The notes beneath the pieces are model-generated. The model did no database searches. It was not told the DNA's origin and saw nothing but the letters and a program-made list of their open reading frames with translations. Below, one piece after another: positions 4,581 to 53,439 of a stretch of DNA of 64,000 nucleotides (the stretch's first letter is position 1; every line of letters begins with the position of its first letter). The position numbers and the translations under genes are program-made. Source of the stretch: Bacillus sp. 491mf (lineage in GTDB: Bacteria; Bacillota; Bacilli; Bacillales; Bacillaceae_G); the NCBI RefSeq assembly GCF_900112415.1, contig NZ_FOLV01000008.1, positions 93,788 through 157,787 of the forward strand, given 5' to 3'.

Positions 4581-5122
4581 TTCTGCAACATTTCAAAAAA
4601 CTCTTCTCTTAACATGCTAAAACGATAACGATCAATAAATTCCCCGTGTCTCAGTCGATCTTTTCTCATTAATCCTTCACATACAAATCCAGCCCGTTCA
4701 TAACTCTTCATCGCTTTCGTATTATCTGCATCTACTCGTAGCCAAATTTTTTCTAAATTGAACTGTTCAAAGCCAATTTGTAGCATTTCATATAAAGCAG
4801 CCATCCCGTAACCTTTTCCCCAGTATCGTTTATCTCCAATCGCAATTCCGAGCTCTGCATTTTTATTTGTTCTATCAAAATTTTTCAAATCTACCCAGCC
4901 AATATGCACACCATCTTCAGAACAAATCGCTCTTTGTTCATAACCATTTGTACGATTAACACACATTTCAATCCATTTTCTTGTCTCTTCACGTGTGAAA
5001 GGTGGATATTGATCTGGAACAACCAAATGCTTCGTTACTTCTTTATCTAAAGACCATTGATAGCGTTCTTCTATATCATTTAGTGATAATTCTCTTAATT
5101 GAACATTCGGTAAATTAAACAT
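4553..5122 (-). CDS. RimJ/RimL-type GNAT N-acetyltransferase
   Basis: About 189 aa from the ATG at 5122. I chose this start because GAGGAATGATTAC precedes it and it avoids overlap with the upstream gene, which ends at 5127. A longer in-frame start exists at 5155. The protein begins MFNLPNVQLRELSLNDIEERYQW, typical of RimJ/L and SpeG-like enzymes, with YWGKGYGMAALYEML as CoA loop and KAMKSYERAGFVCEGLMRKDRL as the C-terminal signature. It likely acetylates a protein N-terminus, a polyamine or a drug. Context (AAC(3), nucleotidyltransferase, serine hydrolase nearby) hints at detoxification but does not prove it. Confidence 0.85.
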   Translation of the reverse strand: MFNLPNVQLRELSLNDIEERYQWSLDKEVTKHLVVPDQYPPFTREETRKWIEMCVNRTNGYEQRAICSEDGVHIGWVDLKNFDRTNKNAELGIAIGDKRYWGKGYGMAALYEMLQIGFEQFNLEKIWLRVDADNTKAMKSYERAGFVCEGLMRKDRLRHGEFIDRYRFSMLREEFFEMLQKCLCRNSLY

Positions 5123-5126
5123 GTAA

Positions 5127-5792
5127 TCATTCCTCATTTTTATATGTTTGTACAATTAGTTCTCCTATATTTTGCAGCACTTGTTCTAGTTGATACCACT
5201 CTGTATTTTCATCGCTTGCTTGAACAAATCCAATACAAAATAACACTCGATCTTCTAAATATAAATAACCAGCATCATTACAAACTGTTTCAAGCCCACC
5301 AGTCATATGTAACCATTCATGTTGATTTGAGAATCGGAAACCGTCTGGGTCTTCTAGTTCTTTTAAAGATTCGAAGATAAACATATTCTCTGTTTCATGC
5401 TTATATAAGAATTTCATGAATTGAAAAACACTAGCTGGTGTACCGTAATTTTTAGTTATACTCGTATTATCCTTATTAACGAGTATATCGAGTTTCATAT
5501 GCTGTAATTCAATATTCATCTCTCTTATATTAATTTTTTCTAAAATAGAATCATATGCTTCTCTCGAATGTTTACGAATAGCCTCTTTAATTGTTATTGG
5601 TGCTATATGCTCGTTTTTCTGAAAAGCAATACTACCTACAATCCATTTTGCCAAACTTGCTAAAGGGAACTTTTTATTTTCATTTATACATAGCGTTTCC
5701 CTTGTTTTTGTGTCATACAAATACAGACCTATTTCAACAGAAGAAGGAATGAGTTGTTGGATATCCTTTATCAAAAGTTTATTAAGTCCCAT
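5127..5792 (-). CDS. Serine hydrolase, class A beta-lactamase-like
   Basis: About 221 aa from the ATG at 5792, which overlaps the stop of the upstream nucleotidyltransferase (TAATG) and is preceded by GAAGGTGG. A longer in-frame start lies at 5816. FPLASLAKWIVGSIAFQ (~residues 43-59) carries a Ser-x-x-Lys catalytic pair. HMTGGLETVCNDAGYLYL (~165-182) occupies the place of the KTG motif but reads MTGG. There is no signal peptide, and the protein is shorter than secreted beta-lactamases (~260-290 aa), so it is probably a cytoplasmic relative of unknown substrate. A beta-lactam-hydrolysing role is not supported. Confidence 0.65.
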   Translation of the reverse strand: MGLNKLLIKDIQQLIPSSVEIGLYLYDTKTRETLCINENKKFPLASLAKWIVGSIAFQKNEHIAPITIKEAIRKHSREAYDSILEKINIREMNIELQHMKLDILVNKDNTSITKNYGTPASVFQFMKFLYKHETENMFIFESLKELEDPDGFRFSNQHEWLHMTGGLETVCNDAGYLYLEDRVLFCIGFVQASDENTEWYQLEQVLQNIGELIVQTYKNEE

Positions 5793-6502
5793 TACTTTTC
5801 CACCTTCCCAATACAAAACCCCTCAAAAAGTCGACCTCCGTACTTATCTAAAATACCATTCACAAATACAATAACCTTCTCCTTCTCTCCTGTTTTATAA
5901 AACTGTTCAAATACAGATACAAACTCTGCAGCAAATCGTTCATCATATCTCTTTAACGTTTTCATGAACCACTTTGAATGTCCTGTCCAACAATTATTCA
6001 TGCGCAATATAAATTCATGAACAAGATCCGCAAGATGATTTGCGATAAACAATTCATCTTCTCGTTTTGTTGCACCAATATAGTCATCTAATACATCCGT
6101 AATAAAATAAAGTTTCTGTTGTATCATTTCTTTTGTCCACGGTTCTGGTCCTTTTTCCAATAGTTGCTGCGCTTCTTTCTTAATAGCTGGTATGATGCCT
6201 TTTATATCTTTTAGCACAATTCCTTCTGTAACGAGCTGCGGTAAAGAAGGACGGCCACGTTTGCAATCACTCGCAAAAAAGTCTTTATAAGATGTAAAAT
6301 TATGTACAAACACTTCAACAGGCCATCCATTTGCTATGAATGATTCACGGTACGCTGAAGAAAGCGTACTATCAAAAATGATAATGTCTAGATCAGAAGT
6401 TTTTGTTCCCTCTCCTCTTGCAATACTTCCACCTAAAAGGGCCGCGTCACAATTTGGAAATTGAGATGCAAGAACTTTTTTAGCTGCCACAACTGGTTCC
6501 AT
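5792..6502 (-). CDS. Nucleotidyltransferase-domain protein
   Basis: A 236-aa protein whose N-terminal half is a Pol-beta-like nucleotidyltransferase: ALLGGSIARGEGTKTSDLDIIIF (~residues 19-41) contains the GGSxxRG and DxD metal-binding motifs. The C-terminal half is helical, as in kanamycin-type ANT enzymes. It probably transfers a nucleotide to a small molecule, and an aminoglycoside substrate is possible but not shown. Translation is coupled to the serine hydrolase gene downstream by a 1-bp overlap (TAATG). The start is the ATG at 6502 behind GGGGAGATACAT. Confidence 0.75.
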   Translation of the reverse strand: MEPVVAAKKVLASQFPNCDAALLGGSIARGEGTKTSDLDIIIFDSTLSSAYRESFIANGWPVEVFVHNFTSYKDFFASDCKRGRPSLPQLVTEGIVLKDIKGIIPAIKKEAQQLLEKGPEPWTKEMIQQKLYFITDVLDDYIGATKREDELFIANHLADLVHEFILRMNNCWTGHSKWFMKTLKRYDERFAAEFVSVFEQFYKTGEKEKVIVFVNGILDKYGGRLFEGFCIGKVEK

Positions 6503-6902
6503 ATGTATCTCCCCTATTAGTTTATTATTTATATATTCTTTACTATCTATTATTACTTATGATATATTCGACATTACTTTTGGATTTTCCTATTTTTAAA
6601 TAAAAATACGGTATGTGAAATTTTAAAACTAATCCTTATTTATTCTTATATAACATTTTAATTTTTCACTATATAAATGTGAGCGTAAACAAGCAGAAAG
6701 TACACCAGATACGCAGGAAATTTGTGAACAGCTACAATTAGTGTAGATTCAAAAAGGAAAAATGAAGAAATTAGTTTTGATTAATAGGAAGGCTATCATC
6801 ATTTCATGTGATGATAGCTTTTTGCATTTAGTAATGAGCTTCTCTATTTTTTTTGAAAGACTACACTACGCCCTCCACTTCGTATCGGCTGTGGCATAAT
6901 AA
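6503..6902. other. Non-coding stretch with possible gene scrap
   Basis: No intact gene is seen. Around 6683-6748 a plus-strand frame reads KQAESTPDTQEICEQLQLV and then stops, without a start codon or ribosome binding site. It could be the last residues of a lost gene, because a terminator-like hairpin follows at 6789-6823. The rest is AT-rich and featureless. Confidence 0.3.
6789..6823 (+). terminator. Rho-independent terminator-like hairpin
   Basis: GCTATCATCA and TGATGATAGC form a 10-bp perfect stem around a 7-nt loop and are followed by TTTTT on the plus strand. No plus-strand gene is intact upstream, so it is probably an orphan of a deleted gene. Confidence 0.6.
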
Positions 6903-7182
6903 ATAAAGTGAAACTTTAATCAGTGGGGGATTTCTTCATCCCCCACTGATTATCAGCCCTCACCAATCGGGCTTTTACGGGCAGTTTATCTCCCGCCTAA
7001 CTTCTTAAGAAAAGCGGAAGCGGCTCGTTCAGAATCGTAGAACGTTGGAGCACAGAGCAGAGAGGCGCTTTTGGCCTCGTCCGAGGGGGCCGAAACGACC
7101 GGAGATTCTAGCCGCTAGAGCTGGACTATGCTCTCGCCGAATTTTGAGGTGGAAGTATTACTGCCCGTTAATGCGGGATAAA
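6903..7182 (-). repeat. bcr1-type repeat, split by a second repeat
   Basis: It matches the element at 57976-58132 in inverted orientation. Both are bounded by TTTAT on the element strand, start CCCGCATTAACGGGCAGTA, and end with a CAGTGGGGG/CCCCCACTG hairpin followed by ATTAAAGTTTCAC. The copy here is 280 bp instead of 157 because 122 bp (7007-7128) interrupt it between the conserved TTCGGCGA and AAGTTAGG parts. Size, TTTAT flanks and palindromes fit the B. cereus-group bcr1 element. That name is from memory of the family, not a search. Confidence 0.75.
7007..7128. repeat. 122-bp GC-rich repeat nested inside the bcr1 element
   Basis: The segment starts AAGAAAAGCGGAAGCGGCTC and ends GCCGCTAGAGCTGGACTA. 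It is clearly more GC-rich than its surroundings and contains complementary stretches (AGCGGCTC with complementary GCCGCTAGAGCT, and GGCCTCGTCCGAGGGGGCC), so it should fold strongly. Removing it restores the continuous bcr1 sequence seen at 57976-58132. Similar AGCTCTAGCGGCTAG...CGCTTTTCTT blocks recur across Bacillaceae genomes in my recollection. Confidence 0.65.
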
Positions 7183-7300
7183 TCACAGCATTAGCTAATA
7201 AAATTCCTAATAAACTAAAGCTTCTTAAAGAGTCTATTATTTTAATTCTTTCTTTTTCCACATGAATGAACATACATAGACCAATTTAAATTGTTGTTAA

Positions 7301-8842
7301 CTAAAATAATCCTCTTTTTCCTTTCTGTTTGATTAGGTAAGAGATACCTTCTATATGGTCGCCGATAATTTGTTTTGTTGCTGAAGAAAGTTCTCCTTTT
7401 TTAGCGAAATGTTTTTCTGGTCGTATACGATTCATTTTATCTACCTCAACAGAATGGACATTTTGAATGTTTAAACCCGATAGAATTGTTTTTACTTGCG
7501 CAATGACGGGGGAAACAAGTACATCAAATCCAATTTCATCAATACATTTTCGGCTAAAAGCATGAGGGATTGCAACTGATGAACCAACCCCTAAATCTTT
7601 TCGGTCACATGCCAGGTTAACAGCATATTTACAGGCTGTCACAATATAGACTGGAGCACGTTTCATAAGATATTCTAAATTATTTAATGCTAGGTCTGTA
7701 CCATTTTGAATCGCGTGGACAAATGGTAGTAGATCTTGCGAAGGAATAATAATATCACCATCAATAAAAAGTAAAATATCACCTTTTGCGAAATATGCCC
7801 CTATAGCCCGTCCTGTATCATTTCCAAGTTTTTCATCATAAACAATGACAGTTGCTCCGCTCTTTTTTACAATTTCTTCTGTATGATCCGTCGTTCCATT
7901 AACTACTACGATGATTTCTAAGGGTTCTAGTTTTCGTACCTCCTGAATTACGGCTTCAATTGTTCTATCTTCATTATGGGCAGGAATGATAACTGATAAT
8001 TGTTTTCCTGCATAAATATTAGAGTGCTTTCCCCAACCAGTAATGATTTTCGGCATAGGTTCTAGTTTGTTTGATTTTAAATTCTCAATAATATTTCTTC
8101 TTCTATTTTCATCAGAATAATTTAGCCTTGAGGCGTTAGTCTCATGTATCCAATCTGCAATTGTTTCAATATGATTCCCGATAATTCTTTTTTCACTAAT
8201 GGAAAGAGTTGTAGGGGTATTTTTATGTTGTTTGGGGTGAACTCGATTAATAGTTACTACATCAATTGACATATGACGAGAGATGCGGAATTGATGTTGA
8301 ATAATCTTTAATTGTGCATAAATCGGATTTTTTAAACTATCAGAATGAATTTTTTTGATGACTTCCTTTGTCATAGCATGAGGCACAGCAACAAGTGAAT
8401 CTGAATTTAAATTCGGACAATGTAAGAAGTGATTCATAACTTGTTTCCAAATTGTGATTGAGTGAGGAGGGTACACTTTTTTAAAAATATAATCTAAGTT
8501 ATTTAATACAACATCCGCAGTTCCTTCTACTAAAGGTTCAAGAAATTGATTTAATGTGGAAGAAGAAATAGTAAAATCGGCATCGATGAATAGTAAGATG
8601 TCGCCTTTTGCTTCTTTCGCTCCTATAGCTCGGCCAACATTGTGCCCTAATCGTTCTTTATATATAAGGACTTTACAATTATGATTTTTAGCAATCTCTA
8701 TAGAACGATCTGTACATCCGTTAGCAACAGCAATAATTTCCATAGGATTCAATTGTTGACATGATTCTAAAACACTAGATAATGTTTTTTCCTCATTGTA
8801 AACAGGAATAATAATCGAAACAGTTTTTTTGTTCATATTCAT
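7301..8842 (-). CDS. Tandem two-domain family 2 glycosyltransferase
   Basis: A 513-aa protein made of two homologous GT2 (GT-A fold) halves. Half one is residues ~6-250 (VSIIIPVYNEEKTLSSVLE; catalytic-metal motif DAD at 87-89 in ILLFIDADF). Half two is ~281-510 (LSVIIPAHNEDRTIEAVI; DGD at 361-363 in ILLFIDGDI). Both also share LGHNVGRAIGA/LGNDTGRAIGA and a later AVPHAMTK/AIPHAFSR segment, so the gene arose by internal duplication and both metal sites look intact. No membrane segments are evident. It likely builds a surface glycan from nucleotide sugars. A nucleotide-sugar dehydrogenase lies nearby on the other strand. Confidence 0.85.
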   Translation of the reverse strand: MNMNKKTVSIIIPVYNEEKTLSSVLESCQQLNPMEIIAVANGCTDRSIEIAKNHNCKVLIYKERLGHNVGRAIGAKEAKGDILLFIDADFTISSSTLNQFLEPLVEGTADVVLNNLDYIFKKVYPPHSITIWKQVMNHFLHCPNLNSDSLVAVPHAMTKEVIKKIHSDSLKNPIYAQLKIIQHQFRISRHMSIDVVTINRVHPKQHKNTPTTLSISEKRIIGNHIETIADWIHETNASRLNYSDENRRRNIIENLKSNKLEPMPKIITGWGKHSNIYAGKQLSVIIPAHNEDRTIEAVIQEVRKLEPLEIIVVVNGTTDHTEEIVKKSGATVIVYDEKLGNDTGRAIGAYFAKGDILLFIDGDIIIPSQDLLPFVHAIQNGTDLALNNLEYLMKRAPVYIVTACKYAVNLACDRKDLGVGSSVAIPHAFSRKCIDEIGFDVLVSPVIAQVKTILSGLNIQNVHSVEVDKMNRIRPEKHFAKKGELSSATKQIIGDHIEGISYLIKQKGKRGLF

Positions 8843-27748: not shown

Positions 27749-29377
<1,629 letters not shown>

Positions 29378-30014
29378 TTAGTTCCTCCTATTAATACCGC
29401 TGTTTTTTAACGAATTTTATCTAAAACACTCTTAACCTATATCTTACGACTCACGTATTTTAGGATATAGCCATTATATAGTAGCAAACATACATAGAGC
29501 AAGGAAAGTTTGTTAATTATATCCTAACATTTCATTTCTTCTCTATTTGTCACCATAACAAACTTAATAATCTATAGATTATGTAAAGACTTTGATTTGT
29601 GTTGCAATCTCCCCAAATGATACCTATCCTTATATGAAGTTCATGTTCCTCAGACCGGAGATTTACCGCTGACTTCCTTCAGATTTCGCGTCACCACGGA
29701 CACCATTGTTTAAGCTAATCGCTATAACTCCCCTCACGATTGACACATGCCGAGCTCAGATATCGGTTTTTCGACGTACGATGAATTATAGTATTTAGTA
29801 ACAATCGCATAAAATGAGGTGCATTTAGCTGAATTGATCTATTCTTTAACGAACTTTTCAACAGAACCCCTCAGCTACTACCAAGTCTTCAAGAACATTT
29901 AATTCTTCCATAGACAATCTAAAATTCCGATACTCTATAAAAAAATCCCGGATCTTTATACTATTATGGAGTCATTTATGAAATATAAAATGGCTCTATT
30001 AGCTTTGTAAGTAT
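29378..30014. other. Intergenic region, possible mobile-element scar
   Basis: No gene is supported. The stretch from about 29650 to 29790 (CCGGAGATTTACCGCTGACT, then CTTCCTTCAGATTTCGCG) has a composition unlike the AT-rich flanks and resembles sequences I remember beside decayed group II introns or IS elements. I cannot confirm this. Confidence 0.3.
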
Positions 30015-40530: not shown

Positions 40531-40795
40531 AAAAGCCCCTACTGATTCCGTTCAGTAGGGGCAGTGATAGTCGCGGTACCACCCTAATTTATAGACAAAT
40601 ATGTCTACCTCTCTTTATTGTTAACGATCATTTTGACCGTCTTTCTCTTCATAAAAACTTTCGTCTTTACTACGAAAAAGATGCTCCAGGGGTGTAATTC
40701 ACACATATCTTTGTACTGATTTCCACCAACCATCAGCTCTCTGAAACAAGAAGATACATGCTACTGCTTCCCTATCAACGCAATAGTTATTTCAT
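40531..40795 (-). promoter_or_regulatory. T-box leader 1 (internal, upstream of chorismate synthase), Tyr specifier
   Basis: On the minus strand: AGAGAGCTGATGGTTGGTGG with CAGTAC (stem I distal), then TGTGAATTACACCCCTGGAGC, where UAC is the probable specifier codon (Tyr), the T-box AGGGTGGTACCGCG, and a terminator of GCCCCTACTGA/TCAGTAGGGGC followed by T8. It begins right at the stop of the DAHPS gene, with no room for a separate promoter, so it acts on read-through transcripts. Confidence 0.9.
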
Positions 40796-41987: not shown

Positions 41988-42245
41988 TATAAAAAAATCC
42001 CTACTGATTCAAATCAGTAGGGACGATCATTATCGCGGTACCACCCTAGTTGTAGACACTTTTGTCTACCTCTCTTTATTGTTAACGATCATTTTGACCG
42101 TCTTTTCCTTCATAAAGACTTTTTGCCCTTACTACGAAAAAGATGCTCCAGGACTGTAATTCATGCTTGTTTATGTACTGGTTCGCACCAACCACCAGCT
42201 CTCTGTAACAGGGAAACAACCACTACTCTCTTTCCTATCATCGCG
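41988..42245 (-). promoter_or_regulatory. T-box leader 2 (proximal of tandem pair), Tyr specifier
   Basis: On the minus strand: AGAGAGCTGGTGGTTGGTGC with CAGTAC, GCATGAATTACAGTCCTGGAGC (UAC), a long linker with AGACGGTCAAAATGATCG, the T-box AGGGTGGTACCGCG, and terminator TCCCTACTGATT/AATCAGTAGGGA followed by T6. About 40 bp separate it from leader 3, with no promoter visible, so the two are on one transcript. Confidence 0.9.
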
Positions 42246-42285
42246 CTAATTATTTTATTTTCATTTAGGTCCGCATATATACAAA

Positions 42286-42540
42286 AAATCCCCTACTGAT
42301 CCAATCAGTAGGGACGATTATTATCGCGGTACCACCCTAATTGTAGACACTTTTGTCTACCTCTCTTCATTGTTAACGATCATTTTGACCGTCTTTCCCT
42401 TCATAAAGACTTCTGCCTTTACTACGAAAAAGATGCTCCAGGACTGTAATTCATGTTTACCTCTGTACTGATTTTCACCAACCATCAGCTCTCTATTACA
42501 GGGGGATAAACACTACTCTGTTCCCTTCAATGCGTTGTTT
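42286..42540 (-). promoter_or_regulatory. T-box leader 3 (distal of tandem pair), Tyr specifier
   Basis: Same arrangement as leader 2 with high identity: AGAGAGCTGATGGTTGGTG, ACATGAATTACAGTCCTGGAGC (UAC), T-box AGGGTGGTACCGCG, and terminator CCCTACTGAT/ATCAGTAGGG then T's. It follows the promoter at 42560-42589 directly. Confidence 0.9.
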
Positions 42541-42637: not shown

Positions 42638-45600
42638 TCATAACAAATGTGAATCATTTGCATGTTGATTCATCATTCCAATGCGCATCATCTCATTTCG
42701 AATCCCCTCAAGTAACGTATTTTCAAGCTTCATCTCATCAAACAATTGCCGAAGATGAATCACTTCATTTTCAATATACTCTGCATCATTTATCTTTGTT
42801 AATAAAACAAAAAATAATGTTGCATACACTTTCGGACATTGCTGGATCAACTCGCTTTTTTCCAGAAGCTGTTTTAATAAATACTTCAATGCTTGTTTTT
42901 CTTCTTGCAATGAAGATATAGAAAAATACGATAAAACAGTTTCAATTCCTTTTTCAGCAATAACATCCATATATAACACAAAACGCAAAAAGATGATATA
43001 TTCTTTCTTAGATATTATACTCATCTTAGGACGTTCAACTAAAAAACCTGCAAGCCAATCTTCCCAAAATTTTTGTTGCTCTTTTAAGCTTAAAGTTTTT
43101 ACATAATACGATACATTTTCTATAAACTTTACTTTCTCCATCTCTTCTCCCTGTATAAAAAGAGCGTACAACCAATCTATTTGTTCATCCCAATATAAAA
43201 TACACTTTAGAAAAATGAGACTTAGCCATTTCCTAAAGACTTCTTGTGTTTGTGCATTCAACAAATGAAAATGCCGTACAGCAAAAGCAATATATTTCTT
43301 TGTTTGTATGAATAAAGGTAAATTAATTTGCGTATTTACAAATCCGGCCCATGCATACTTTGTTTCCTCTTTGTTTTTCTGCAAATCTAAGTAAGGAATT
43401 AAATGTTTTCTACACCAATGCTTCTCGATATGAAAGAGAAATGTTAAATCAGCTGTAAGCCTCGCAATCATAATATTGACATAGTATGATTTTTTCCGCA
43501 TCTGCTCTTCAAATACATACAAATACGCATGGATATTTCGATCATATAAATGTTCATATGCAAGAAGCTTTAATAAAGTTGCTGTTATTTTCCCTACCGG
43601 ATGTTGAACTGCCTCATTATAGTAATCTGTTTGCTCTTTATCTTTCCCTTGCCCTCCTTTCATAACATGAGGAAATAACGAAAATGCAAGTTGTTTTACT
43701 GCGCGAATTGTATCTTCTTGAAATTCTGCTAACTGATTGCTTTTTTCATATAGAAAACTACTTATGAGCCAATGATAAGTCGTATGCCTTACAAATTGAT
43801 GCAACATTGGTAAAATCTCTTGTATATTCTTATCTGTTAATTGTCGATTATTGCGCCACTCTCTAATTAATACAAACCATACTTCTTTACTCACTTCTTT
43901 ATATCCAACTAATTGATACGCAAGCGAAATACTCCATTGTACATTTGTTTTACAAGCCTTTGAAAGCATTTCTAAAAAATGATGCTTCTCTACCAATCCT
44001 TCCTGTGAATATTGAATAACTTGCCTTACCATTTCTACTTCTGTCATATGCAATAAACCATCTATTGTTAAATTGCATGTGATTGGTTGTAATGTCCGCT
44101 CCTCTTGTAAATCTGGAAACTGCCTTGATAAAAAATGAGGGAATTTCAGTTTCATGGATTCATATGTTTGCTTCGTAGATTCATGATTTGGTACGCACAA
44201 ATAAAGCCAGTCAATTAAGTTACAAGCCACATAGCACGTCTTTTCTTCAAACTGTTTCACTATGGCTGTCAGTACTTTTTGTTTCGTATGTTCAGCTGCA
44301 TGTTCATAATGATTCTTTAACAGTTGAAAGACTTCATGCTTACAAGTATCTTCGATAAGCAGTTGACACTGTAACAACCATTCTATTTTTTCATTTTGCG
44401 TTCGAAAAACAGTATGGTTCATACTGTGTACTGCAATTCGCTTTTGCAATGTATTCCCAAATTCCATCATAAAAGAAATATAAAAGTTTGCTTTATCCTC
44501 ATAATGGACACAAACATAGTCCATACAATCTCTAACTATATTAATTAAAAACGAAAATTCACGTGGTTGGCTATCTTGCTCATGTGGTTCAATTGCACTT
44601 CGTGAATCACTAACTGAATCATGGATCTCAAGGGCCTGTTGTTTTAGCGTTAATCTCTGTAGTTTTTCTAATCCAATCTGTAATATTGGAATCGAAAAAT
44701 AAGAAAGATGTGGCTTCAATTTCACTTCCCATATGTGCTGCAGCCTTAAAAAGCTTGTAGCTGATAGATGGTTTGTTTCCGCTAACTCTATCACATCTTG
44801 CATCTCATGTTCCCATTGCCGAAGTCGCTTCAATTTTAGTTTTCCATCTAATATACAAGTAAGTAAAAGAACCATAATTTCTTTATGTTCCGGATACGTA
44901 CATTTGTTAAGCAACGAAGGCAGACTTTCAATGAAAAATTCATTTCTTTTCGCCTTTTCTAACAATAATAAAAGCCACTGCGCAAACGAAACGATATCTA
45001 TGGGCTGTTCCGTATCTACTAAAAAGTTACATATCGTATTCCATAACAAAGTAGATATTTCTGTATTATTTTTATACATCAACTGAAATAATTCATTTTG
45101 GTGGCTTACTAAAAAATGATCAACAATCCACTGTGCAAGCAACTGATCTTTCTCAGAAGTCTCAGCTTCCTGTGAAAATAAATTCCGCAGTTGTCCTTCT
45201 TTTTCTAACCATTCCACCCATTCGTAGTCTCTTGCAAATTCTACAAAATAACGAAGTGTCTCAATTTTTTTTACAGATTGTTTAATATAAGACAGTTGTT
45301 CCTGCTCTAAAGATGGAGGAACAGTTACAATATCACGAATTCGTGTTCTTTTTGTAATATAATTATCTCCCATTAACTCTGCCCACCGCTGCACTGCTTT
45401 TGCTAATGATTGATGATTTTGCGCCTTATTTGGATAGACAATGGGCTTAATCCCTAAATGCTCCCAGTGATATGTATTATCTCCCCCCGCAACAAACGCA
45501 TACCGCCTCGTACTTGGTGGTAATCCAGTTGCTAAATATTTCATAACAGGGTCATTATGACTATATCCAATAAACAAAACTGTATAATTAGAAAATAAAT

Positions 45601-46150
45601 CAACCAAAAATCGTCTTGCCCATCCTTCTGTTAAGTAAGCCCTTCCAAAATCGCCATCTGTCAAAATTAAATTCTCTTCTTCTTGTTCCACATTACCATG
45701 AATATATGCCAATCCTTTAAACGTTCTTCCCGTTGGAAGTGCCGGAGCATAGTATATATTTACTTTACGTCTTGATCCCTCAAGTACCGTTGTAAAATGC
45801 TGATCGAAATTTGTAGTAACAATTCGAACATTCTCATCATTTGCAAATAATTGCAAAATAGAATAATGTAATGGATTTGGCATTGAATATGCTACATGGA
45901 CAAGATTCTTCGCAATCTGATGAACATCTTTCGTTTTTGCAATTTTCCCAAGATAATAATCGTGCGGTTCATTTTCCTCACGTTTGTCTACATATAGAGC
46001 GCTCGCAATATCATCCACTAAATCATCAAAATTTGGTAAGTTTGAATTGCCTTTCATAGATACTCCAGCTCCAACAAATAAAACCAGTTTCCCTTGTTCG
46101 AGTTTATCAAATAGTTCATCTGGAATTTCTACTTCTGAAGTAATCCACAC
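42638..46150 (-). CDS. SIR2-domain protein with long helical C-terminus, candidate anti-phage NADase
   Basis: 1170 aa from the GTG at 46150, preceded by AAGGGGGGATCAGG. Residues ~15-260 are a SIR2-like Rossmann domain: LFVGAGVSM (26-32), VTTNFD with Asn114, YIHGNV with His151, and FIGYSHNDPV (194-202). These correspond to the NAD-binding and catalytic Asn/His of defence SIR2 proteins (ThsA, DSR). The remaining ~900 residues are helical repeats without P-loop, HerA or transmembrane signatures, resembling DSR-type or DUF4020 architectures. It probably depletes NAD+ upon phage sensing. It is a single gene, divergent from a membrane-protein gene. Confidence 0.75.
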   Translation of the reverse strand: MWITSEVEIPDELFDKLEQGKLVLFVGAGVSMKGNSNLPNFDDLVDDIASALYVDKREENEPHDYYLGKIAKTKDVHQIAKNLVHVAYSMPNPLHYSILQLFANDENVRIVTTNFDQHFTTVLEGSRRKVNIYYAPALPTGRTFKGLAYIHGNVEQEEENLILTDGDFGRAYLTEGWARRFLVDLFSNYTVLFIGYSHNDPVMKYLATGLPPSTRRYAFVAGGDNTYHWEHLGIKPIVYPNKAQNHQSLAKAVQRWAELMGDNYITKRTRIRDIVTVPPSLEQEQLSYIKQSVKKIETLRYFVEFARDYEWVEWLEKEGQLRNLFSQEAETSEKDQLLAQWIVDHFLVSHQNELFQLMYKNNTEISTLLWNTICNFLVDTEQPIDIVSFAQWLLLLLEKAKRNEFFIESLPSLLNKCTYPEHKEIMVLLLTCILDGKLKLKRLRQWEHEMQDVIELAETNHLSATSFLRLQHIWEVKLKPHLSYFSIPILQIGLEKLQRLTLKQQALEIHDSVSDSRSAIEPHEQDSQPREFSFLINIVRDCMDYVCVHYEDKANFYISFMMEFGNTLQKRIAVHSMNHTVFRTQNEKIEWLLQCQLLIEDTCKHEVFQLLKNHYEHAAEHTKQKVLTAIVKQFEEKTCYVACNLIDWLYLCVPNHESTKQTYESMKLKFPHFLSRQFPDLQEERTLQPITCNLTIDGLLHMTEVEMVRQVIQYSQEGLVEKHHFLEMLSKACKTNVQWSISLAYQLVGYKEVSKEVWFVLIREWRNNRQLTDKNIQEILPMLHQFVRHTTYHWLISSFLYEKSNQLAEFQEDTIRAVKQLAFSLFPHVMKGGQGKDKEQTDYYNEAVQHPVGKITATLLKLLAYEHLYDRNIHAYLYVFEEQMRKKSYYVNIMIARLTADLTFLFHIEKHWCRKHLIPYLDLQKNKEETKYAWAGFVNTQINLPLFIQTKKYIAFAVRHFHLLNAQTQEVFRKWLSLIFLKCILYWDEQIDWLYALFIQGEEMEKVKFIENVSYYVKTLSLKEQQKFWEDWLAGFLVERPKMSIISKKEYIIFLRFVLYMDVIAEKGIETVLSYFSISSLQEEKQALKYLLKQLLEKSELIQQCPKVYATLFFVLLTKINDAEYIENEVIHLRQLFDEMKLENTLLEGIRNEMMRIGMMNQHANDSHLL

Positions 46151-46383
46151 CCTGATCCCCCCTTACCTAAAAATGTTAATTTTCTCTTTCTAAATATAAC
46201 ATTTTTTGTTTATTTTTCAAACATTCAGATAAGTGGAATCTGAATAAATATTAAATGCATTTGATTTATAATCAGGTAGTTATCTTCCGTCTTTTTAGAA
46301 AACACCTTGCATGTTATAATTTTAAATTCCCATGTATAAAGTTCCCTTTTTCATTCAAACTAAATAGAAAAAGAGAGGTTCAA

Positions 46384-52737: not shown

Positions 52738-53439
52738 TTATTTTAATCCTAACTTTGCACATAATTGATACAAAAAGTATAGTCCATGTAACTGTTCTTG
52801 ATTACGTTTATTTAAATGCTGTTGGCACTCCCGGACAATGCTTTTTGCCCCTTCAATATTGTATTCCTCCAAATTTCTAATAGATTTTTTTAATTGAACA
52901 ATTTCGTGTGAATACACAGCGTTTTGTGTAAGCTTCATTAACAAAATTTTAATAAACTGATATGAATTAAAGTAGCGATAATTATTTTTACCTCTCTTTG
53001 AATTAACATGTCTCTCTTTTTCCCAATATCGTATAGTAGAAGTAGAAATTTTTGTTTTATTTGCTACCTCTCCAATCGTCATTAGGTGATTTGCTATCGA
53101 TTGAGAATCAACGATATTGTTTAGGTCTTTTATTATTCTAGTTGCTAACTCTTTTTCTTGATAGGTGACTGCTTGTATCTCGTTGATTATCCAGAGTGCA
53201 GAATTCAAATTTTTTTGTTGCAGTTTTTTTAATACAGCTGTTGTTATCTCCATTCCAAACCCGGGTGACATGGCTACTATACATTCAAAATATGCTAAAT
53301 GTTCCTCCGTATAGATTCGATATCCTGTATCCAACCTTTCTGTGGGTGGGATAATCCCCCTTGTTTCGTAACTTCTTAAAGTGCTAGTACTTACATTTAA
53401 CCTTTTCGCAATATCAATAGGCCTTATATTACTCTTCAT
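52738..53439 (-). CDS. Regulator with two MerR-type helix-turn-helix domains
   Basis: 233 aa. HTH 1 is at ~5-60 (PIDIAKRLNVSTSTLRSYETRGIIPP, GYRIYTEEHL). HTH 2 is at ~119-175 (MTIGEVANKTKISTSTIRYWEKE, NYRYFNSYQFIKILLMKL). Both retain the STSTxRxYE/WE recognition helix and the wing residues. No metal- or drug-binding domain follows, only short helices. MerR proteins normally have one HTH per chain and dimerise, so one chain here may mimic a dimer. Convergent with the XRE-cupin gene, divergent from the unknown gene at 53588, its likely target. Confidence 0.8.
   Translation of the reverse strand: MKSNIRPIDIAKRLNVSTSTLRSYETRGIIPPTERLDTGYRIYTEEHLAYFECIVAMSPGFGMEITTAVLKKLQQKNLNSALWIINEIQAVTYQEKELATRIIKDLNNIVDSQSIANHLMTIGEVANKTKISTSTIRYWEKERHVNSKRGKNNYRYFNSYQFIKILLMKLTQNAVYSHEIVQLKKSIRNLEEYNIEGAKSIVRECQQHLNKRNQEQLHGLYFLYQLCAKLGLK

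Follow-up and report, generated by a model that had tools for sequence, protein, structure and literature searches.

A DSR1-like SIR2 protein as a candidate single-gene anti-phage NADase on a Bacillota chromosome

Among the closest described relatives of the protein considered here, DSR2 of Bacillus subtilis, of which structures have been solved (e.g. 8wyb), joins a SIR2 domain that hydrolyses nicotinamide adenine dinucleotide (NAD+) to a helical arm within one gene. According to the parts of PMC10973363 and PMC11087589 available, this domain cleaves NAD+ only in the full-length protein together with a phage tail tube protein, the tail tube binds DSR2 via the C-terminal domain of DSR2, and activity is lost in the N133A/H171A control; the catalytic pair N133/H171 is stated in an available passage of PMC11087589 to be kept in DSR1 too. 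Excerpts of PMC12931631 give GAGxS and TTNxD as motifs common to the SIR2 domains of Avs5, DSR1, DSR2, ThsA and Ago, while DSR1 is described in a review (PMC10952713, also available in part) as inhibiting phage replication without cell death. The subject of this paper is an unbroken open reading frame (ORF) of 1170 codons, beginning with GTG and running on the minus strand (46150→42638) in a 64,000-nucleotide stretch of contig NZ_FOLV01000008.1, the whole of which is called the window below. Its product is most probably (at a probability of roughly 0.77) a chromosomal single-gene anti-phage NAD+ hydrolase (NADase) of the DSR1 superfamily, in which the C-terminal scaffold would act as sensor. 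This reading is based on the ORF itself, its domains, its intact catalytic residues, the homology of its C-terminus to that of DSR1, its patchy distribution, and the finding of relatives on a plasmid, next to defence genes and on a contig that resembles a prophage.

The SIR2 domain and the DSR1-like arm

An earlier note on this DNA had described a 1170-residue SIR2 protein here, without giving its strand, with a GAG motif at residues 27-29, Asn114, His151 and a GYSxND motif; the ORF and each of these residues proved to be in place, the last motif reading GYSHND (Table 1). The SIR2_2 profile that the note proposed as a check was run on Pfam and matches residues 109-224 (PF13289, E=1.8e-20, far above chance). 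Both GAGxS and TTNxD are present, and the columns of Asn114 and His151 are invariant across an alignment of 13 proteins. Three PADLOC Dsr1 models match, two of them with their best stretches in the SIR2 part (1.3e-57 and 2.5e-55) and one over residues 8-1138 (5.8e-20); PADLOC also lists two ThsA models, whose matches lie in the SIR2 part (2.5e-12), and gives a weak match to PDC-S61 at residues 680-785 (E=3.3e-4).

As to the remaining 900 or so residues, the note had taken them to be unrecognisable and to lack an NTPase or HerA module. The second part of this holds, no NTPase or HerA model being listed for the protein in Pfam, PADLOC or NCBIfam; the first does not, as DUF4020 lies at residues 979-1154 and homology to DSR1 extends over nearly the whole length. 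A profile of the window clade (the window protein and three full-length relatives, from a Rhodococcus ruber plasmid and from the genomes designated G744 and G252) was compared with a canonical Dsr1 set of four plasmid proteins, from E. coli, Nitrosococcus, Pantoea and Shewanella, and matched it at full length with Prob 100 and E=2.2e-70. The C-terminus alone (window residues ~331-1136) matched over 779 columns with Prob 99.85 and E=1.3e-30, and matched a third group (Acuticoccus, Zymomonas, Cupriavidus) with Prob 98.3 and E=1.5e-14. Two proteins that PADLOC types as Dsr2/ThsA, distinct from the studied DSR2, served as a negative control; their C-termini gave Prob 0.07 and E=0.71. The two C-terminal checks put forward in the note, DUF4020 and DSR profiles, both returned matches (E=6.7e-36 and 1.3e-30).

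DUF4020 itself is no hallmark of the family, because among nine full-length proteins scanned it passes the cut-off in those of the window and G252 only; the G744 protein scores below the cut-off, and those of Rhodococcus, E. coli, Agrobacterium, Acuticoccus, Zymomonas and Rhizobium have no DUF4020 listed. It is also present in G1014, and in 1 of 398 genomes sampled from the class. An open-literature search found no paper under its name, and no DSR1-type C-terminus was found by sequence among solved chains. SIR2 segments are 26-65% identical, and C-terminal segments 5-42%, between the window protein and the three closest relatives then compared: the enzyme part is conserved, whereas the arm changes fast.

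Both features used as criteria for the DSR1 superfamily, an N-terminal SIR2 domain that has the catalytic Asn/His pair and a long DSR1-homologous C-terminus, are found in the window protein. It would not be filed as Dsr1 itself, because it scores 262.4 bits with the NCBIfam Dsr1 equivalog (NF041818), against a curated cut-off of 1400; all scanned members of its clade, four in number, reach 250-284 bits and the four canonical proteins 1674-2098. In a tree built from 21 full-length proteins it pairs with G744 (100/99), and these two form a group at 100/100 with G252, Rhodococcus and a protein from the prophage-like viral locus L063, apart from both the canonical Dsr1 group and the third, mostly alphaproteobacterial, group; in a tree of 24 proteins G1014 and G1059 join the window clade (99/99). 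All seven clade members placed in the tree are SIR2-fused. To judge from the sequences, the clade, with its members from Bacillota, from a Rhodococcus plasmid and from a lambdoid prophage, is separate from the curated Dsr1 family. It would extend DSR1-type defence to a third clade, found in Bacillota, on an Actinomycetota plasmid and on a lambdoid prophage-like contig, whose members would go unnamed by the Dsr1 model curated at NCBI.

The window protein shares with DSR1 (NF041818, PADLOC Dsr1) the N-terminal SIR2 with its Asn/His pair, the helical C-terminus of about 900 residues, full-length homology and the single-gene arrangement. It differs in being only ~20% identical to the E. coli plasmid protein, in its separate clade, in its score (262 bits, where E. 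coli and the three other genera reach 1674-2098) and in DUF4020, which scores in it and not in the E. coli protein. With DSR2 it has in common the SIR2 NADase domain and helical arm in one gene, and the catalytic Asn/His; however, the profile match is confined to residues 7-123 of the SIR2 part, and there is no C-terminal homology to the two Dsr2/ThsA-type relatives. ThsA, KomC and other SIR2 NADases are alike in SIR2 fold by sequence (8zsf, 2.6e-5; 7uxt, 1.6e-4) but share no C-terminus, and no partner gene was seen near the window protein. Unlike Thoeris ThsA, the protein has no SLOG-type domain and no ThsB among the ten neighbouring or nearby window proteins scanned (a selection of the window's ORFs), and, unlike in SIR2-HerA, no separate HerA ATPase gene was found among those ten.

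By analogy with the studied DSR2, from which NAD+ hydrolysis, oligomerisation and a phage-protein trigger are carried over, the N-terminal SIR2 would be a latent NAD+ hydrolase using Asn114 and His151, kept inactive by the C-terminal scaffold, probably within an oligomer; the scaffold would bind some phage product made in infection, freeing the active site, so that NAD+ would be depleted and phage production would stop. The sensing of a phage component by the C-terminus, already put forward in the earlier note, is likewise inferred from DSR2. The particular trigger of DSR2 cannot be carried over, because the C-terminus of the window protein differs from that of DSR2, and no paper identifying a DSR1 trigger was found in the literature searched, as far as its text was available. 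The note's placing of the protein among SIR2 defence proteins of the DSR kind is supported by the PADLOC Dsr1 and profile matches; its more specific label of abortive infection finds no support, given that the available text of PMC10952713 has DSR1 blocking phage without cell death.

Distribution and company of the relatives

The distribution of the protein is patchy. It occurs at full length in one of 397 genomes sampled from the order, with the SIR2 part only in two more, and in one of 398 sampled from the class, with SIR2 only in three more and the C-terminus only in one; in the phylum sample the third PADLOC Dsr1 model matches in 7 of 398 genomes, namely a full-length protein in G846, the clade members in G1014 and G1059, a SIR2-less protein in G765, and SIR2 only in three. 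In the family containing Ectobacillus panaciterrae a profile of the window protein found nothing in 19 genomes (0/19), the same query recovering G744 and G252. The earlier note had held that presence in every B. cereus-group genome, with low variability, would favour housekeeping; a presence in every relative does not apply here. A housekeeping or regulatory sirtuin, that is, a protein deacylase whose helical arm binds substrates, would suit a gene that stands singly on the chromosome among ordinary neighbours and has native composition, and NCBIfam does list a weak match to an NAD-dependent deacylase; but at 20.8 bits this is far below the cut-off of 221, and the absence from the 19 family genomes, the rarity in the order, class and phylum samples, and the relatives on a plasmid, in a prophage and beside defence genes make this very improbable.

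Phage records contained no match for the window protein. Genome and viral contigs searched with the single protein yielded no relative, because such scans reach only close ones; alignment-based searches gave 4 viral loci and, with a wider alignment, 29. The ORFs of these 29 were extracted, and L063 was examined for its neighbours. This viral contig, lambdoid and prophage-like, carries endolysin, Q-like, RusA, NinB, P-like, O-like, CII-like and repressor genes; its DSR1-like gene (4842-8486) lies between the NinB-like and P-like genes, on the strand opposite to both. Beside it is a gene for a 298-residue protein with no PHROGs match.

Other members of the clade keep varied company. Besides the Rhodococcus ruber plasmid gene, that of G1014 (L125) ends a same-strand run of genes for a DNA methylase, an SNF2-type helicase, PglZ and a 246-residue protein, while that of G1059 (L126, 8080-11789) adjoins a gene for a metallophosphoesterase protein of 1839 residues with a NACHT-like match. 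The G1059 gene may be disrupted: its ORF of 1060 residues ends early and is followed by one of 176. In G252 (L052) the neighbour is a serine recombinase-like gene, so named from its sequence, and more distant relatives lie near a TIR gene, Shedu and restriction genes.

Scaffolds without a fused SIR2

A class-wide search brought up in G028 (L107, 8275-11682) a protein of 1135 residues whose match is limited to the C-terminal part (527-721, E=5.6e-11). Pfam gives no match for this protein, and its gene is part of a type I restriction operon with HsdM, specificity and restriction-subunit domains. Ten plasmid records hold kin of it, the 942-residue Vibrio coralliilyticus protein described below among them. 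The SIR2-less protein of G765 is 48.6% identical to it, and on its 11.5 kb contig (L124) comparison with a small library of restriction proteins found no restriction gene, so that the family stands beside type I restriction in one of two Bacillota genomes. The C-terminus of the window clade matches this SIR2-less family over 761 columns (Prob 99.4, E=1.2e-21), the control comparison giving Prob 0.08 and E=0.63. Strings resembling RSAIEPHEQD, the motif most strongly conserved in the C-terminal region, recur in SIR2-less relatives as RRAVEEHEQN, RPAVEDHLQN and RPAIEDHAQN. Two haloarchaeal plasmid proteins of ~1500 residues, annotated as ATP-binding (L112, 3592-8124; L114, 3685-8166), both have a match to PDC-M54A, a candidate-defence model, near the N-terminus, and their C-terminal halves match Dsr1 (E=8.8e-37 and 1.7e-18).

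On Vibrio coralliilyticus plasmid pOCN014 (L115, 4509-8250) a scaffold gene of 942 codons overlaps the end of a SIR2 gene by 8 bases, the pair being annotated as a SIR2 family protein and a hypothetical protein. On the third PADLOC Dsr1 model the first accounts for positions 5-301 (E=1.6e-58) and its partner for 311-1213 (E=5.6e-113), which makes the pair a split DSR1; like the window protein it spans the model, and its scaffold carries RRAVEEHEQN, but it does so in two overlapping genes instead of one. The separate Vibrio genes indicate that the parts can work in trans, which, like the ThsA matches in the SIR2 part, lends something to another explanation: that the window protein makes or needs some other signal, its C-terminus recruiting a partner encoded elsewhere (as in Thoeris and SIR2-HerA) on which the NADase would depend. 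However, ThsB/TIR and HerA are unmatched among the ten window proteins, Pfam lists neither SLOG nor any other nucleotide-sensing domain for the window protein, and seven of seven clade members in the tree are SIR2-fused, all of which render such a partner unlikely.

The C-terminal scaffold looks portable, because it occurs without SIR2, behind an ATP-binding N-terminus, and as a separate gene after SIR2. It is a tentative suggestion, a little short of an even chance, that the DSR1 scaffold is a portable infection-sensing module wired to different outputs, the window protein being one of several read-outs and the RSAIEPHEQD-like motif marking a shared functional site. With the same reserve, the outputs might be a fused SIR2, a SIR2 in trans (Vibrio), an ATP-binding N-terminus (haloarchaeal plasmids) and, where the scaffold itself brings no enzyme, a type I restriction operon. 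What the comparisons establish is the homology of the scaffolds; infection sensing by the module is not part of this. The split and SIR2-less relatives allow direct tests of the long arm as sensor.

A number of observations count against reading the window protein as a DSR1-type defence NADase with a sensing arm. Its score is far under the Dsr1 equivalog cut-off (262 against 1400 bits), a SIR2-only tree with an outgroup backs the five-protein clade weakly (87/66), and the trees carry warnings of long branches and skewed composition. A regular-expression search found no RSAIEPHEQD-like string in Streptomyces, the two haloarchaeal proteins or G846, the motif is weak in G252, and the match of the SIR2-less family to the C-terminus of canonical DSR1 is weaker (Prob 89, E=2.1e-6) than that to the window clade. 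The NACHT match in L126 scores 25.3, below its cut-off of 26.7; the G744 copy lies behind an addB/addA-like gene pair (identified by reading), an ordinary chromosomal place; and the window locus, on the ten proteins scanned, is no defence island. Finally, the gene shows no compositional sign of recent transfer, because its guanine-plus-cytosine content (GC, 33.8%; at third codon positions, GC3, 27.3%) equals that of the window and of eight other genes; a foreign composition, considered as a candidate, was accordingly rejected.

The gene, its site and its host

Table 1 Features of the gene and of its predicted product, in window coordinates.
Feature	Coordinates	Strand	Basis or remark
DSR1-like SIR2 protein, 1170 residues, complete ORF	42638..46150	-	GTG start; stop at 42638-42640
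N-terminal SIR2-type NADase region, residues about 1-270	45341..46150	-	PADLOC, Pfam, NCBIfam and solved-chain sequence matches
GAG motif, residues 27-29	46064..46072	-	read in translation
Asn114, TTNFD motif, predicted catalytic	45809..45811	-	alignment column and translation
His151, predicted catalytic	45698..45700	-	alignment column and translation
GYSHND, residues 195-200	45551..45568	-	read in translation
C-terminal region, residues 271-1170, DSR1 C-terminus homologue, proposed sensor/regulator	42641..45340	-	profile comparison
RSAIEPHEQD, residues 517-526, best-kept C-terminal-region motif	44573..44602	-	alignment
DUF4020 (PF13212), residues 979-1154	42689..43216	-	Pfam, E=6.7e-36
AAGGGGGGA, ribosome-binding-site-like, 5 nucleotides upstream of GTG	46156..46164	-	read from sequence, no statistical test
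Promoter-like TTGAAA-16-TATATT, TG ahead of second hexamer, 10/12	46193..46220	-	weak

Promoter-like sites of the kind in Table 1 number 21 in the region, with 21.4 expected by chance, and this lack of enrichment is what might speak for a defence gene that has decayed or fallen silent and persists by chance; but with 1170 codons open, the catalytic residues and the motif kept, and a good ribosome-binding site, decay is the least probable of the explanations weighed here.

The gene stands alone, as the earlier note had it, no partner gene adjoining it, and none of the ten proteins scanned has a dedicated defence-system match, the only ones being generic ABC-ATPase, helix-turn-helix and MerR matches. 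The note's further idea of a conserved aro-yndM insertion site did not survive comparison, the neighbourhood differing in every relative compared: the order aro-SIR2-DUF2512 is kept neither at the aro loci (five in all) in four genomes of the genus nor around the DUF1275 gene in three further members of the family, and an insertion hotspot was rejected.

Its assumption of a host in the B. cereus group fared no better, and was rejected as stated. The flanking DUF2512 protein has its best match in Ectobacillus panaciterrae (75% identity), where AroF is 93% identical, and a flank search gave 19 loci, among them Ectobacillus, Priestia, Metabacillus and Fictibacillus. The host can be placed, on present sequence matches, in the family of E. 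panaciterrae, and only this level is safe, because the ABC-F-like gene (27749-29377) is closer to other genomes of the family (DNA identity 83%) than to E. panaciterrae (77%). GTDB places the B. cereus group in this family too.

Some minor observations concern the surroundings. T-box leaders (Rfam RF00230, 144.6-159 bits) lie on the minus strand at 42016-42250 and 42307-42539, in tandem before aroF, and at 40554-40787, before aroC; a perfect sigma-70 promoter match (42589-42560) stands ahead of the first T-box, and the tandem arrangement on one aromatic operon suggests tight tRNA-dependent control. The ABC-F-type protein (27752-29377) matches PADLOC mad3 (1.9e-42) and a MerR protein (52741-53439) matches mad1 (8e-22), both probably through generic ABC and MerR homology. 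Just past the ABC-F-like gene there is a group II intron D1-D4-3 match of 75 bits (29526-29700, minus strand).

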